Below, piece after piece: positions 2,351-35,244 of a DNA stretch of 49,187 nucleotides. Under the pieces are notes generated by a model. The model saw nothing but the letters and a program-made list of their open reading frames with translations, made no database searches and was not told the DNA's origin. The position numbers and the translations under genes were made by a program. Source of the DNA: Ktedonobacterales bacterium (GTDB lineage: Bacteria > Chloroflexota > Ktedonobacteria > Ktedonobacterales > DATBGS01). The DNA lies in assembly GCA_036557285.1 (NCBI GenBank), contig DATBHW010000025.1, positions 1 through 49,187 of the forward strand. Reading direction: 5' to 3'. Position 1 is the first letter of the stretch, and each line of letters starts with the position of its first letter.

Positions 2351-2579
2351 GCTTTTGCTCTCCTGCATCCGGCCAGGATCGCTTCGAGTGCGCCACTGGC
2401 CTCTGCTCACTCGTATCAAAGCTGTTCGCGCTGCGCACAAACCGACGCGCCGGTCTGTTCTCTTCCATTAGTAGTTATAGGCCGCCTGGGAGCGGAAAAT
2501 CAAGGGTGGGCCGGGCAGCGCGCTGGCCCTGGGCTGTCGAATGTCGCGTTACCCCGTCAACTGCCTTGCGTTCTACTTC

Positions 2580-2603
2580 TAGATGTTCTTTTAGATGTTC
2601 TTT
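2580..2603. repeat. Perfect 12-bp tandem direct repeat
   Basis: TAGATGTTCTTT occurs twice without a gap, just outside the left end of the TnpB element. It may be a replication slip or a duplicated flank of the insertion. Confidence 0.7.
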
Positions 2604-2667
2604 ACCGAGGGCGAGCGCGAAAGCTCCTGACTTTAGTCATGGGGAGGAAGCGCCGCCGTCTCGCTGT

Positions 2668-2697
2668 TTGACAACGTTTCGCGTTTTGTGCTACAAT
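2668..2697 (+). promoter_or_regulatory. Sigma-70-type promoter of the RHH-tnpB unit
   Basis: TTGACA (2668-2673), 18-bp spacer, TACAAT (2692-2697). The RHH start codon begins only six bases after the -10 box, so the message is predicted to be leaderless. Confidence 0.7.
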
Positions 2698-2703
2698 ATT
2701 GAT

Positions 2704-2865
2704 ATGAAGCAATCAACAGGATTCCGCTTAACACCAGAGGCCAGAGCGTTGCTGGACGCCATGAGTAAGGCCACAGGCATCTCACATACGGCCATGCTCG
2801 AAATCCTGATCCGTGAAGGGGCCAAGAAGCGAGGCGTGCGTGCTGATTCTGGAGTACAAACTTAG
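2704..2865 (+). CDS. Small ribbon-helix-helix (CopG/Arc-like) protein
   Basis: A 53-residue protein. A short N-terminal strand (GFRLTPEARALLDAMSKAT) is followed by a helix-turn-helix pattern (ISHTAMLEILIREGAKK), typical of RHH DNA-binding dimers. No ribosome-binding site can fit between the promoter and the ATG, so it is probably translated from a leaderless mRNA. Its 3' end overlaps the tnpB start by 26 bases in another frame, suggesting coupling. The likely role is autorepression of the element or control of TnpB, by inference. A second, divergent copy of the same arrangement lies at 13.1 kb. Confidence 0.75.
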   Translation: MKQSTGFRLTPEARALLDAMSKATGISHTAMLEILIREGAKKRGVRADSGVQT

Positions 2866-4039
2866 GACCAATCAACGCCAGCAAAGCGCGATTGAGGCAG
2901 CCATCCGTACCACGCAGTTTGTGCGCAACAAGGCGCTCCGGTTGTGGATGGATACGCGGGGTACGGGCAAAAATGACCTGCAAGCCTACTGCGCGCAACT
3001 GGCGAAAGACTACCCGTTTGCCGCGCGGCTCAATGCGATGGCCCGCCAGGCGGCGGCTGATCGTGCCTGGTTTGCAATTGCACGCTTCTACGAGAACTGC
3101 CGGAACCACAAGCCAGGGAAGAAGGGCTATCCCCGCTTCCAGAAAGAGAACCGGTCTGTCGAGTACAAGACCTCTGGCTGGCGGTTGGAACCGGATGGGC
3201 GTTCGCTCACCTTCACGGACGGACACAGCATTGGGACGCTGCGCCTCATTGGCACACGCTCCATTGAAACGTTTCCCATGCAGCAGATCAAGCGGGTCCG
3301 TCTCCTCAAGCGCGCCGACGGGTACTATGTGCAGTTGGCCGTCCAGGCAGATCGACAGATAGACCACTCGCCGACGGGGAAACAGGTGGGCATTGATGTC
3401 GGCTTGAAAGCCTTCTACACCGATTCTGCGGGCCAACAGGTAGACAATCCTCGCTATCTCAGGAAGGCCGAGGCCAAACTGAAACGCTTGCATCGGCGCG
3501 TCTCCCGCAAGCAGAAACGCGGGAAGAACCGCAAGAAAGCCAGCAAACGCCTGGCAAAAGGCTATCTGAAAGTCAGTAGGCAGCGTAAAGACTTCGCCGC
3601 GAAGGCGGCAAGTGCGCTCGTCTCGTCTCACGACCTGATCGCCTACGAAGACCTCAAGATAGCCAGCCTGGTCAAGAATCATCATCTTGCCAAGAGTATC
3701 AGCGATGCCAGTTGGGGGCTGTTCCTGGGCTGGCTCAGATACTATGGCTCCCTGCATGGCATTTCCGTGGTGGCCGTCTCCCCACGCTTCACCACGCAGG
3801 ATTGCTCTGGCTGTGGGTTCCGGGTCAAGAAGACGCTCAGCATGCGGACGCACGTTTGCCCGGAATGCGGTTTGGTGCTTGATCGAGATCATAATGCGGC
3901 TCTCAACATCTTAGAACTGGCCCTCAACCGTACCGCCGGGCAGGCGGGAACGGGTGCTGCCTCGGCAGTACGTAACGCTTCTGGACAGGGAACCTCTGGT
4001 AGCCGCAAGCGATTGCGGTCTGCTAAGCTCGCTGGATGA
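2840..4039 (+). CDS. tnpB: TnpB RNA-guided nuclease (IS200/IS605 accessory protein)
   Basis: About 399 residues from GTG 2840, where the expected N-terminus LILEYKLRTNQRQ begins; the frame is open from 2813. Family: RuvC-like endonucleases guided by an omega RNA from the element's right end. All three catalytic acids are visible in context: GIDVGLKAFY (Asp), AYEDLKI (Glu) and DRDHNAALNI (Asp). The zinc ribbon is intact (CSGCG and CPECG). A basic helical bundle RRVSRKQKRGKNRKKASK precedes the second acid. It overlaps the RHH gene and looks functional. Confidence 0.92.
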   Translation: MLILEYKLRTNQRQQSAIEAAIRTTQFVRNKALRLWMDTRGTGKNDLQAYCAQLAKDYPFAARLNAMARQAAADRAWFAIARFYENCRNHKPGKKGYPRFQKENRSVEYKTSGWRLEPDGRSLTFTDGHSIGTLRLIGTRSIETFPMQQIKRVRLLKRADGYYVQLAVQADRQIDHSPTGKQVGIDVGLKAFYTDSAGQQVDNPRYLRKAEAKLKRLHRRVSRKQKRGKNRKKASKRLAKGYLKVSRQRKDFAAKAASALVSSHDLIAYEDLKIASLVKNHHLAKSISDASWGLFLGWLRYYGSLHGISVVAVSPRFTTQDCSGCGFRVKKTLSMRTHVCPECGLVLDRDHNAALNILELALNRTAGQAGTGAASAVRNASGQGTSGSRKRLRSAKLAG

Positions 4040-4077
4040 AGGAAGAATCCCCTGGCTTGAGCCATGGGGAGTGTCAA
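3930..4077 (+). ncRNA. Putative omega RNA / right end of the first TnpB element
   Basis: In TnpB systems the guide RNA covers the 3' end of tnpB and the right-end hairpin. Here the hairpin CCCCTGGCTTGAGCCATGGG (4049-4069) ends ten bases after the tnpB stop, and the element ends near 4077. The RNA 5' boundary is a guess. The guide would be the flanking sequence beginning near 4078. Confidence 0.4.
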
Positions 4078-4087
4078 TAATCCTCTA

Positions 4088-4193
4088 CTAAGAATGCCTC
4101 ACACAACCGACGGTTGGCCCCACCCCTGCCGCCTGGGAGGACGGCGCTACACCCCCGCCCCTGCTGTGCGGAGGTTGTGTGAGGCGCTCTAAG
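4088..4193. repeat. MITE-like element with terminal inverted repeats
   Basis: 106 bp bounded by perfect 13-bp inverted repeats GCCTCACACAACC (4096-4108) and GGTTGTGTGAGGC (4173-4185). Weaker similarity extends outward to CTAAGA on one side and TCTTAG-type bases on the other. The interior carries the GC-rich GCCGCC...GACGGCGCTACAC motif. Related elements lie at 6055 and 8164. Confidence 0.75.
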
Positions 4194-4252
4194 CCTCCAG
4201 AAACAATCGGGCGACATTAGAAGGCGCTGCCAGCCCTGGAGTAATCGCATTG

Positions 4253-5374
4253 GTGACTCAAAGCAACGTGAACCAGCAAGCGCACATTGATGAGCATGCG
4301 CCCCAGGAACGCTCTGATGGGTCGTCCGGTCATCTGCGCGTGGGTGTGATCGGGTGTGGGCAGTGGGGGCAGAATTACCTGCGCGTCTTATCGGAATTGG
4401 AGCAGACAAAACTTGTTGTCGCGTGTGACACGCGGCCCGACATACGGCAGCGTGTGGCCGCGCGCTATCCGGGTGTGCGTGTGGTGGCCTCGGTGGATGA
4501 ACTCTTGAGCGCCGAGGACATCCAGGCGGTCGTCGTAGCGACTGATGCTCGCTCCCATTTTGCCCTTGCCTCAGCCGCCTTGCGCGCGGGCAAGCATACC
4601 CTCTGTGAGAAGCCGCTGACTACGCAGGTAGAGGAGGCGGTTGCCCTGGCGCAGTGCGCCGATGCGTGTCAGCGGACGTTGATGGTCGGCCATATTTTCC
4701 GCTATAACGCGGGCGTGAACGCGCTCCGGCAGGAAATACTCGATCCTGGCTTTGGAGAGGTGTGTTACCTTTGTCTGGTGCGCACCAACCTTGGGCCAAT
4801 TCGCCCGGATGTGAATGCCGCCTGGGATCTTGCCCCGCATGATATATCTATTGTGTTGCATCTGCTTGATCATATGCCGCTCCGCGTCACCGCGCAGGGC
4901 TTTTCGTACCTGCAAGCGGGGCGCGAGGATGTTGTCTTCATCACCCTCGAAATGCCAGGCGGCGTGGCGGCGCACCTGCGGGTGAGCTGGCTTGATCCCC
5001 GCAAAGTACGTGAGGTCACGGTGGTTGGTCGGCAGAGAATGGCGGTGCTGGATGATGTGCAGCCGATGGAAGGGCTGCGCATTTACGATAAAGGCGCGAG
5101 GGAGGAGCCTTCGCCTTACGCTTCTTACGGCGAGTTTCAGTATGTGGTACGCAGCGGCGAGGTGCGTATCCCTCCGGTGCGCGGCGATGAGCCGCTGCGC
5201 GAGCAGGCGCGCCATTTTGTTCAGGCGGCGCTGGCTGGCCGCCGCCCGTTGAGCGATGGATGGGATGGAGTGCGCGTTGTCGCTATCATGGATGCGATCC
5301 AGCGATCTCTCAAGGCGGGCGGCGTGCCGGTGGAAATGGAACAACGTTATGTCCTCTTTTCCTCTGGAGCATGA
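4253..5374 (+). CDS. Gfo/Idh/MocA-family sugar dehydrogenase (WbpB-like)
   Basis: About 373 residues. The N-terminal Rossmann motif is GVIGCGQWGQNYLR and the family's EKPLTTQ motif follows. The C-terminal part fits the Gfo/Idh/MocA substrate domain (AWDLAPHDISI with the catalytic-type His). Such NAD(P) enzymes oxidise the C3 hydroxyl of nucleotide sugars. The next two genes encode a left-handed beta-helix acyltransferase and a DegT-type aminotransferase, the set used in WbpB-WbpE-WbpD synthesis of diacetamido sugars; the sugar itself is inferred. TTG at 4250 is an alternative start with better spacing to GGAG. Confidence 0.85.
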   Translation: MTQSNVNQQAHIDEHAPQERSDGSSGHLRVGVIGCGQWGQNYLRVLSELEQTKLVVACDTRPDIRQRVAARYPGVRVVASVDELLSAEDIQAVVVATDARSHFALASAALRAGKHTLCEKPLTTQVEEAVALAQCADACQRTLMVGHIFRYNAGVNALRQEILDPGFGEVCYLCLVRTNLGPIRPDVNAAWDLAPHDISIVLHLLDHMPLRVTAQGFSYLQAGREDVVFITLEMPGGVAAHLRVSWLDPRKVREVTVVGRQRMAVLDDVQPMEGLRIYDKGAREEPSPYASYGEFQYVVRSGEVRIPPVRGDEPLREQARHFVQAALAGRRPLSDGWDGVRVVAIMDAIQRSLKAGGVPVEMEQRYVLFSSGA

Positions 5375-12980: not shown

Positions 12981-13062
12981 CGCCCTGTCCTTTTCTTCTT
13001 TCTTCTTGATGAAAGGGCCGCCGCATACCCCCGTCTTCAGGCGGGGTCAGGAGGCCCACCGC

Positions 13063-13091
13063 TTGGCAAGATTACAAAGCGATGATATACT
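13063..13091 (+). promoter_or_regulatory. Promoter of the second RHH-tnpB unit
   Basis: TTGGCA (13063-13068), 17-bp spacer, TATACT (13086-13091). The RHH ATG at 13098 is six bases beyond the -10, again predicting a leaderless transcript as in the first element. Confidence 0.65.
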
Positions 13092-13097
13092 ATCATC

Positions 13098-13268
13098 ATG
13101 AACAACGATGCCAAACTGAAACGCACGACCATCTATATCTCACCGGAACTTCAAGCAGCCTTACGAGCCTTGGGCAAGGCCCATAAGCGCTCCTTTACCG
13201 GCGAAGTGTTGTGGGCGTTAGAGCAGTATGTGCTGGCCCACCAGAAGGGACCAGCGCGTGCCGAGTAG
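13098..13268 (+). CDS. Small RHH protein paired with TnpB
   Basis: 56 residues. The N-terminal strand KRTTIYISPELQAALRAL and the following helices (RSFTGEVLWALEQYVLAH) form a standard RHH domain. It is clearly diverged from the 2704 protein, yet occupies the same place: leaderless start just after the promoter, stop overlapping the tnpB start (11 bp). A likely DNA-binding regulator of the element, by inference. It lacks any nuclease motif. Confidence 0.75.
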   Translation: MNNDAKLKRTTIYISPELQAALRALGKAHKRSFTGEVLWALEQYVLAHQKGPARAE

Positions 13269-14433
13269 GAAGACGTTCAAATACCGTATCTCCCCAACAG
13301 CCAGGCAAGAACAGACGCTGCTGTTCTTTCTGCGGCGCTGTCGTGACCTGTACAACGCGGGGCTGGAACAACGCCGCACCTACTATCAGATGCGCCACGC
13401 CTCGCTTTCCTGCTATGCCCAAATCAACGAGTTGCCCGACCTGAAGCAGACGTACCCCGCCTATCAAGACGTTCCCTCGCATGTCCTGCAAGACGTGCTG
13501 CGCCGCCTGGACAAAGCCTTTGCCGCCTTCTTCCGCCGCATCAGGAATGGGGACACCCCTGGCTACCCGCGTTTCAAGAGTGCCACCCGCTATCAGAGTT
13601 TCACCTATCCTGACGTGGCTGGCTGGAAGCTGCACGGGGACCGCCTGGCGCTGGCTGGTGTGGGCGACGTGAAAGTCAGGCTGCATCGGGAGATGCAGCG
13701 TACAATCAAAACTGTCACCATCCGGCGCGATATAGACCAATGGTACGTCACGTTCTCCTGTGAGGTGGCCGAGGAACCTCCCTTGCCGCCCACTACTGCC
13801 GCCGTTGGGCTGGACCTGGGTGTGCTGCATTTTGCCACGTTGTCTACAGGCGAGCAGATCGAGAACCCCCGGCAGTATCGCAAAGGCTTGAAGCGTCTCA
13901 AGCGGCTGAGCCAGGTCAAGGACCGGCGGAAATATGGCAGTCATCGCAGAAAACGAGCGGCTATCGCGCTGGCAAAGGCACATCGCAAGGTCCGCAACCA
14001 ACGGCACAACTTTCATCATCAGCTTTCCCGCCGCCTGGTGGATGAGTACGGGCTACTGGCGATGGAAGACCTGTCTATCCTCAATATGACCGCCACGCCG
14101 GAAGCCAAACCGGACCCAGACCACGAGGGCGCGTATCTGCCCAATGGGGCGGCGGCCAAGGCGGGCTTAAATCAATCCATCCTAGATGCTGGTTGGGGTC
14201 AGTTCCAACAGTTCTGCATCGTCAAGGCTGAGAGGGCCGGGCGGCGCGTGGTGTTGGTAGACCCCAAGTACACCAGCCAGCTTTGCAGCGGGTGTGGAAC
14301 CATCGTGAAAAAGGAACTCTCCGAACGCTGGCACTCCTGCGCATGCGGCGCAGAGCTAGACCGGGACCACAACGCGGCACTCAACATGTTGTTCCGGGGC
14401 CAGGAAGTGGCCCACGATGCTACGGCGTCGTAG
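13258..14433 (+). CDS. tnpB: TnpB RNA-guided nuclease, second copy
   Basis: 391 residues from GTG 13258, where PSRKTFKYRISPTARQE gives the expected N-terminus; the frame is open from 13228. RuvC acids are visible: GLDLGVLHFA (Asp), AMEDLSI (Glu), LDRDHNAALN (Asp). The zinc ribbon is CSGCG ... HSCACG, with one residue fewer in the second knuckle than in the first copy. It differs strongly from the 2840 protein, so this is a separate lineage rather than a recent duplicate. Appears intact. Confidence 0.92.
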   Translation: MPSRKTFKYRISPTARQEQTLLFFLRRCRDLYNAGLEQRRTYYQMRHASLSCYAQINELPDLKQTYPAYQDVPSHVLQDVLRRLDKAFAAFFRRIRNGDTPGYPRFKSATRYQSFTYPDVAGWKLHGDRLALAGVGDVKVRLHREMQRTIKTVTIRRDIDQWYVTFSCEVAEEPPLPPTTAAVGLDLGVLHFATLSTGEQIENPRQYRKGLKRLKRLSQVKDRRKYGSHRRKRAAIALAKAHRKVRNQRHNFHHQLSRRLVDEYGLLAMEDLSILNMTATPEAKPDPDHEGAYLPNGAAAKAGLNQSILDAGWGQFQQFCIVKAERAGRRVVLVDPKYTSQLCSGCGTIVKKELSERWHSCACGAELDRDHNAALNMLFRGQEVAHDATAS

Positions 14434-14464
14434 AAGCCCACTGCTTTAACTGTGGGTACTTCAC
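14340..14464 (+). ncRNA. Putative omega RNA / right end of the second TnpB element
   Basis: Expected to span the tnpB 3' end and the hairpin at 14437-14456. The element ends at about 14464 after TACTTCAC, so a guide would derive from sequence beginning near 14465. The 5' boundary cannot be seen. Confidence 0.4.
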
Positions 14465-34834: not shown

Positions 34835-35244
34835 CAGGCTTTTCTCCTTCTCCTTTTCTTTTCTCTGAGGGGTTTACGTTTTGTTTGTGTCCACGACAGC
34901 AGCAGGCTCGTTATCGCCAGGCCAATCAGTGACGAGGCAATGATGCGCCGTGTCATGTTTCGGATGGGAAGGCGAGTTTGTTGCGCTCCCTGGCGCACTT
35001 CAACGGCCACCGGGCGATTCCAGAGCAGCCCGCCACCCGGCCAGATGATCTGGGCGACTCGCCCAATGGGGGTGATCTCGTATCCGTGTGCCTGAACTGG
35101 CTGGCCGCGCGTCTCATAGGTGCGCCAGCCGGTGCGTGGTTGTCCTTGTTGCATCTGTGGTTCACCAGGGGCGAGCGCGGAAGCCCCCTGCTTGAGCAGT
35201 GGGGAGGAAGCGCCGCCCGTTTCGCTTGTTTCCTGGTTGCTCAT
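34834..35244 (-). CDS. Hypothetical membrane protein upstream of the GerW gene
   Basis: 136 residues. A single membrane helix near 102-121 (RIIASSLIGLAITSLLLSW) and a very basic tail (REKKRRRRKA). The middle (ITPIGRVAQIIWPGGGLLWNRPVAVEV) is unassigned. The first ~27 codons lie inside an IS200/IS605-type left-end sequence, so ATG 35244 may be a captured start; ATG 35154 is the next candidate. Co-transcribed with the GerW gene. Confidence 0.6.
   Translation of the reverse strand: MSNQETSETGGASSPLLKQGASALAPGEPQMQQGQPRTGWRTYETRGQPVQAHGYEITPIGRVAQIIWPGGGLLWNRPVAVEVRQGAQQTRLPIRNMTRRIIASSLIGLAITSLLLSWTQTKRKPLREKKRRRRKA

Follow-up and report, generated by a model that had tools for sequence, protein, structure and literature searches.

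Ribbon-helix-helix (RHH) proteins of the Arc/CopG type are autorepressors of phages and plasmids, and in type II toxin-antitoxin operons whose antitoxin is an RHH protein, an overlapping gene order goes together with autoregulation. Among the insertion sequences, the tnpB-only (IS1341-type) group is characterized by tnpB as the single gene. For IS608, an excerpt of PMC5934647 gives TTAC as the left cleavage site (CL), AAAG as the left guide (GL), GAAT as the right guide (GR) and TCAA as the right cleavage site (CR), and TldR proteins are described in an excerpt of PMC13418256 as TnpB-derived RNA-guided repressors. In this work, an element located at positions 2606-4077 of a 49,187-nucleotide stretch of Ktedonobacterales DNA (assembly GCA_036557285.1, contig DATBHW010000025.1; the whole stretch is called the window) has been analysed. 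An RHH gene precedes and overlaps tnpB in this element, and comparison with related sequences indicates that the RHH protein is probably an autorepressor of the RHH-tnpB operon that replaces the transposase in a non-autonomous IS200/IS605-type element.

The element resembles IS608 and the tnpB-only IS200/IS605 members in its TTAC/TCAA sites, AAAG/GAAT guides (as in the PMC5934647 excerpt), subterminal hairpins and intact TnpB, but differs from them by the RHH gene that occupies the tnpA position and overlaps tnpB. Its TnpB has a relative of known structure in ISDra2, which carries TnpA where the window elements carry RHH. With the Arc/CopG systems it shares a small RHH protein and, in sister elements, a palindrome over the own promoter; here, however, the operon belongs to a transposable element and encodes an RNA-guided nuclease, and the putative operator is seen in sister elements only. 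The overlapping gene order and the autoregulation proposed here are reminiscent of type II toxin-antitoxin operons, although nothing points to TnpB being an RHH-bound toxin. As in the TldR loci of the PMC13418256 excerpt, a TnpB-type protein has a new gene neighbour; in the window this neighbour encodes a DNA-binding protein and takes the position of the transposase gene. Identity with TldR was rejected because the RuvC residues D186, E270 and D350 are present, whereas the RuvC site of TldR is inactivated.

Architecture of the element

The features of the element are the following (site names from the IS608 excerpt of PMC5934647):
2606-4077, forward strand: whole element, 1472 bp, with IS608-type left and right end motifs and without tnpA
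2602-2605, forward strand: TTAC target and left cleavage site, followed by C, equal to IS608 CL
2620-2623, forward strand: left guide AAAG, at the base of the left hairpin, equal to IS608 GL
2624-2646, forward strand: left-end hairpin (DNA fold of -13.6 kcal/mol, z -1.8 for 2606-2662)
2668-2697, forward strand: promoter TTGACA-18-TACAAT (-35 at 2668-2673, -10 at 2692-2697), with the same layout in other copies
2704-2865, forward strand: RHH gene, 53 aa, with ATG exactly 6 nt past the -10 (Pfam RHH_3, AlphaFold2, substitution ratios)
2831-2834, forward strand: GAGG, possible tnpB ribosome site within the RHH gene, judged from sequence; the equivalent place is purine-rich in other copies
2840-4039, forward strand: tnpB, GTG start, 399 aa (NCBIfam guided_TnpB, E 2.6e-79; RuvC residues)
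4045-4048, forward strand: right guide GAAT, equal to IS608 GR
4048-4070, forward strand: right-end hairpin (DNA fold of -7.8 kcal/mol, z -2.3 for 4040-4077)
4074-4077, forward strand: TCAA right cleavage site, equal to IS608 CR, behind which the TnpB guide would start

The IS608 end grammar is complete, with TTAC at 2602, AAAG at 2620, GAAT at 4045, TCAA at 4074 and the subterminal hairpins, and the end points 2604 and 4077 given by an earlier sequence-only reading of this DNA fit the TTAC (2602-2605) and TCAA (4074-4077) sites. The subterminal hairpins, the cleavage and guide tetranucleotides and a TnpB that has a RuvC site and a zinc finger place the element in the IS200/IS605 superfamily. 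As that reading had noticed, no tnpA open reading frame (ORF) is present in 2606-4077, so the element is not an autonomous IS200/IS605 member; neither is it of the tnpB-only type, because a second gene under selection, the RHH gene, is present. An Rfam scan of 2500-4300 produced no match up to E 1.

The same reading had placed the -10 six bases before the RHH ATG and the tnpB start inside the RHH gene, and both were borne out (TACAAT at 2692-2697 and ATG at 2704; GTG at 2840 and end of the RHH gene at 2865, an overlap of 26 nt). The RHH protein matched Pfam RHH_3 with E 5.9e-5 and 23.4 bits, above the cut-off of 21.6, and in its single-sequence AlphaFold2 model (mean predicted local distance difference test score of 84) helices 11-24 and 28-43 correspond to the two RHH helices. 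A structure search with this model gave Arc and CopG repressors as top neighbours, yet all with E of at least 1.1. The TnpB residues D186, E270 and D350 align with the RuvC site of the solved TnpB-like nuclease 9yyg, the next match being ISDra2 TnpB. The presence of an RHH gene overlapping a nuclease-intact tnpB in a tnpA-less element is confirmed.

Conservation of the RHH gene among copies

The source draft genome (G000, 5.1 Mb) is the sole representative of its family among the genomes searched, and its class is taken to be Ktedonobacteria, judging by named relatives that include Dictyobacter and Ktedonobacteraceae. The genome contains eight long copies of the window tnpB family, four further short matches being end fragments that were left out of this count. 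TnpB identity among copies is 75-84%, and the RHH gene is kept in all eight, including one with a truncated tnpB; its absence from other copies of the same lineage, which the sequence-only reading had named as the finding that would speak against it, was not observed in the genome. The distance from the RHH start to the tnpB start is 136 nt, once 139 nt (L004, with one extra codon), and the overlap of both genes is 26, 32 or 56 nt. The ratio of nonsynonymous to synonymous substitutions (dN/dS) of RHH was 0.08-0.41 in the 14 computable pairs out of 28, the remaining 14 being saturated at synonymous sites; the window-family RHH is under purifying selection. In the next relatives from the class, with TnpB identities of 56-69%, tnpB is instead accompanied by TnpA, by a divergent or a different RHH, or by no partner. 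The copy with the truncated tnpB (L007, G000:C42) has a 3' piece about 0.9 kb off, suggesting an insertion.

Regarding the ends, the left site is TTAC in five copies and TTAT in two, and L146 has neither a clear site nor AAAG. The AAAG guide occurs in four of the five TTAC copies (not in L143), while both TTAT copies have AAAA. The pairing of a TTAT target with an AAAA guide at the left ends of L145 and L152 represents a natural target-guide covariation, as would be expected if guide and target still pair. The seven copies with an intact tnpB end share the right end GTGTCAA. Six Y1 matches were detected genome-wide, none of them at any of the eight copies.

Distribution of the RHH-tnpB pairing and exchange of the transposase

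The survey of RHH genes at tnpB that had been proposed along with the sequence-only reading revealed a recurrent pairing. Among 30 tnpB loci fetched from 33 matches in the genome, an RHH gene lies immediately 5' and in the same direction in 16, TnpA is present in two and a serine recombinase in five. In 167 class loci, a non-random set made up of the 30 G000 loci, 28 plus 29 class loci and 80 stretches hand-picked from matches (L102 and L127 were dropped as G000 duplicates), the partner was a co-directional RHH in 31, a divergent RHH in 11, TnpA in 32 and a serine recombinase in 6, one of the RHH assignments (L230) being weak; no partner was recognised in 87, which include loci later judged by eye to be RHH (L125, L126, L160) or RHH-like (L154, L173, L232, L262) and a TnpA remnant (L201). 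The RHH types are barely alike in sequence. With Pfam at E up to 0.05, 16 of 28 representative proteins matched Arc and 14 RHH_1.

When 251 Chloroflexota genomes were searched with an RHH profile, tnpB adjoined the hit in 10 of 11 loci within the class and in none of the 19 outside it (30 loci fetched), although other RHH types elsewhere are not excluded by this result because the profile was built from class sequences. A set of 79 TnpBs closely related to the window TnpB, mainly from cyanobacteria, includes one with a co-directional RHH (L012, with seemingly the same RHH and promoter as L123) and 12 in which a small RHH-like ORF is divergent. These 13 loci emerged when a broader profile was used and the upstream ORFs were listed, the 12 divergent ones, mostly cyanobacterial, being read by eye; six of them were submitted to Pfam, of which two passed the RHH_1 cut-off and four gave weak matches. 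A profile of the window-family RHH only, too narrow for this purpose, gave no convincing match in the 79 relatives (best E 0.21). RHH genes also precede tnpB of a serine-recombinase (IS607-type) lineage in L158 and L159, and L279 and L322 contain similar RHH genes with no TnpB recognised downstream in the available DNA.

The proposal that RHH stands in place of TnpA is well supported. The TnpA-led locus L140 shares with the RHH-led loci L134, L139 and L142 a left end of 54-85 bp at 81-86% identity and a tnpB at 77-81%, whereas the gene between them differs, and the same pattern occurs in L114/L126 and L119/L123. L156/L158 display this swap for a serine recombinase, with a left-end match of 27 bp; in L161/L159, L153/L154 and L141/L138 the tnpB is common and the left-end match is not clear. 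In a TnpB tree of 86 sequences (of 87 loci with a long tnpB; labels corrected by eye), RHH-led and TnpA-led members interleave, with 11 label changes needed for co-directional RHH and 13 for TnpA. The partners of TnpB have been exchanged often, the tree leaving the count of independent gains unfixed.

Candidate operator and start of transcription

At 24 loci with co-directional RHH outside the window family, an inverted-repeat axis lies 14.5 bp before the ATG, where 52.5% of 360 possible pairs are paired, versus a background over all axes of the same loci of 25.2% (standard deviation 4.6%). At this axis the control values are 24.4% in TnpA-led loci (n=24) and 24.6% in solo tnpB loci (n=58). 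Another 18 RHH loci reach 58.9% of 270 pairs; their ATG was chosen by the -10, so that the palindrome count alone was used (one of 19 had no usable ATG), some are related to the first set, and TnpB is just downstream in 13, off the contig in three and not shown in two. The summed inverted-repeat score of 29 RHH promoters was 192, compared with 135.5 ± 5.2 after shuffling (150 as the top of 200). Beginning where the -35 ends, the palindrome covers the -10 and reaches the start codon, and its sequence varies with the RHH type, as in L192 (CATGCAACCATT-N10-AATGGTTGCATG) and L261 (CATACTAGAA-N14-TTCTAGTATG). In seven of 10 elements tested, the half-site did not recur beyond the promoter, the exceptions being L134, L137 and L270, with arms of 7-8 bp. 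Since this RHH-specific palindrome over the promoter looks like the operator of an autorepressor, autorepression of the RHH-tnpB operon is favoured.

The distance from the end of the best-scoring -10 to the RHH ATG is exactly 6 nt in 28 of 32 RHH loci, versus 6% of 1339 arbitrary ATGs; the start codons of L123, L124 and L160 were hand-set both here and in the palindrome-axis analysis. With the -10 at this distance, transcription should begin at the start codon, and the leaderless expression proposed by the sequence-only reading is probably right. It is not peculiar to RHH, however: spacings of 6 or 7 nt were also found in 20 of 24 TnpA-led and 28 of 58 solo tnpB loci, and the leaderless geometry is a general trait of these elements.

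According to the favoured mechanism, transcription would start at the RHH start codon or beside it, and an RHH dimer would bind its own promoter and shut the RHH-tnpB operon. TnpB, and probably also the guide-bearing tail of the mRNA, would be kept at a low set level, and translation of tnpB would begin at an internal site that overlaps the RHH gene. Movement of the element would depend on a TnpA provided in trans, and the operator would extend from the sister elements to the window RHH type.

Several results weigh against this interpretation. In the window RHH family no common palindrome axis emerged (best z among related copies 2.6; pairing of 27.5% at -14.5), and the inverted repeat score of the window element's own promoter was not significant (p 0.88). 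The excess was modest in divergent RHH promoters (60 versus 49.1 ± 2.8, top of 200 shuffles 59) and absent in the cyanobacterial promoters (64 versus 58.3 ± 3.3 shuffled, highest 70). Moreover, a Y1 TnpA with TTAC-type ends was not recognised among the six Y1 matches of the draft genome. The idea that RHH represses its element is supported in the sister RHH-tnpB elements, whose promoter palindrome is absent from TnpA-led and solo loci. In the window family no axis was seen to be shared; for the window element, repression therefore rests on analogy, and the case for autorepression by its own RHH type is weaker.

Two other motifs were observed. ATGT-N12-ACAT, ending in the start codon, was seen by eye in four of the eight window-family copies (L145, L148, L150, L152). 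TTTACA-N15-TGTAA, once without the first T, lies over the -10 in 15 of the 87 no-partner loci (L162, L164, L166, L168 and L172 among them), where no RHH gene is found; it may be bound by a trans repressor or by TnpB itself.

Alternative roles of the RHH protein

An overlapping co-directional order with a small DNA-binding gene in first place and a nuclease gene behind it is the layout of type II toxin-antitoxin operons. This layout, and the weak matches of some RHH members to antitoxin RHH models, would suit an antitoxin-like pair in which RHH binds TnpB or its RNA complex and restrains the nuclease, besides any autoregulation. Such a pair is unlikely, because dissimilar RHH types accompany closely related TnpBs, some TnpBs within the same clades are partnered by TnpA or stand alone, and several RHHs of 50-53 aa have barely any tail for partner binding; conservation of the tail in the window family is uninformative because much of it is encoded by the tnpB overlap. 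A role limited to positioning the translation of tnpB, or a relic ORF, would be in agreement with a short first gene that overlaps tnpB and with the 87 of 167 loci in which none is recognised. Selection at the protein level, the RHH fold, the different RHH families at the same place and the RHH-only palindrome already disfavour this leader or passenger role, which is the least probable of those considered.

The RHH protein NikA helps a relaxase, and by analogy RHH might bind the element and recruit TnpA made elsewhere. The RHH gene does occupy the TnpA position, the ends and targets suit recognition by TnpA, and the Pfam NikA-like family is matched at 3.6e-6 to 6.2e-5 by RHH-like proteins from three divergent elements, one in Ktedonobacteria and two in cyanobacteria. 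This helper role is nevertheless improbable and is not favoured because the half-sites sit in the promoter; they have no exact match at the ends of L134, L137, L138 and L158, the four of 10 elements whose right end was within the DNA searched, and RHH is also paired with tnpB of serine-recombinase lineages (L158, L159). To a similarly low degree, RHH and TnpB could be a domesticated pair that works for the host, such as through defence or gene regulation, as might be suggested by the lack of a recognised matching TnpA in the genome and by the divergence of the copies (75-84% TnpB identity). Eight copies with element ends in one genome, the ends that sister elements have in common with TnpA-led relatives, the truncated copy L007 and the intact RuvC residues, unlike those of nuclease-dead TldR, argue against such a pair.

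Other elements in the window

A second element of the same design, with a tnpB of another lineage, is present in the window:
13006-14464, forward strand: second element, with TTGAT at 13006-13010 and TTCAC at 14460-14464
13081-13097, forward strand: palindrome GATGATA-TAC-TATCATC covering the -10 (13086-13091), with perfect 7-bp arms (p 0.045 against shuffles)
13098-13268, forward strand: second RHH gene, 56 aa, with a weak Pfam match of its own (FitA-like_RHH, E 0.036)
13258-14433, forward strand: second tnpB, whose product is 34% identical to the first TnpB, with an 11-nt overlap with the second RHH gene

The second RHH was picked up by an RHH profile that had it among its seeds. This element comes after TTGAT and begins with G, which is a likeness to ISDra2 as given in the excerpt of PMC5934647. 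In addition, a lone left-end copy without tnpB was found at 35161-35231, with 79% identity to the first part of the element at 2606-4077; it is followed by a hairpin resembling the right ends of the other lineage, as in a short non-autonomous remnant.

Significance

A full-text literature search did not find an RHH gene coupled to tnpB described, the two likeliest TnpB surveys being outside its coverage, and the novelty of this coupling is therefore provisional. A broader scenario is put forward tentatively: tnpB elements throughout Ktedonobacteria, and divergently in cyanobacteria, may repeatedly have given up the transposase in exchange for RHH repressors that differ in specificity and have individual operators. 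Copies sharing an operator would then shut each other down and become active only in a cell that is naive to them.

These results touch on the control of TnpB expression and on why many tnpB genes lack a transposase, and they are relevant to IS200/IS605 elements and to the ancestry of Cas12. A dedicated repressor gene that takes the transposase position time after time would be a direct and testable control layer, and it predicts homotypic silencing among copies. The RHH repressors would then be natural compact off-switches for RNA-guided nucleases and, if the broader scenario holds, the elements would form a class of self-limited elements that encode only an RNA-guided nuclease and its repressor.
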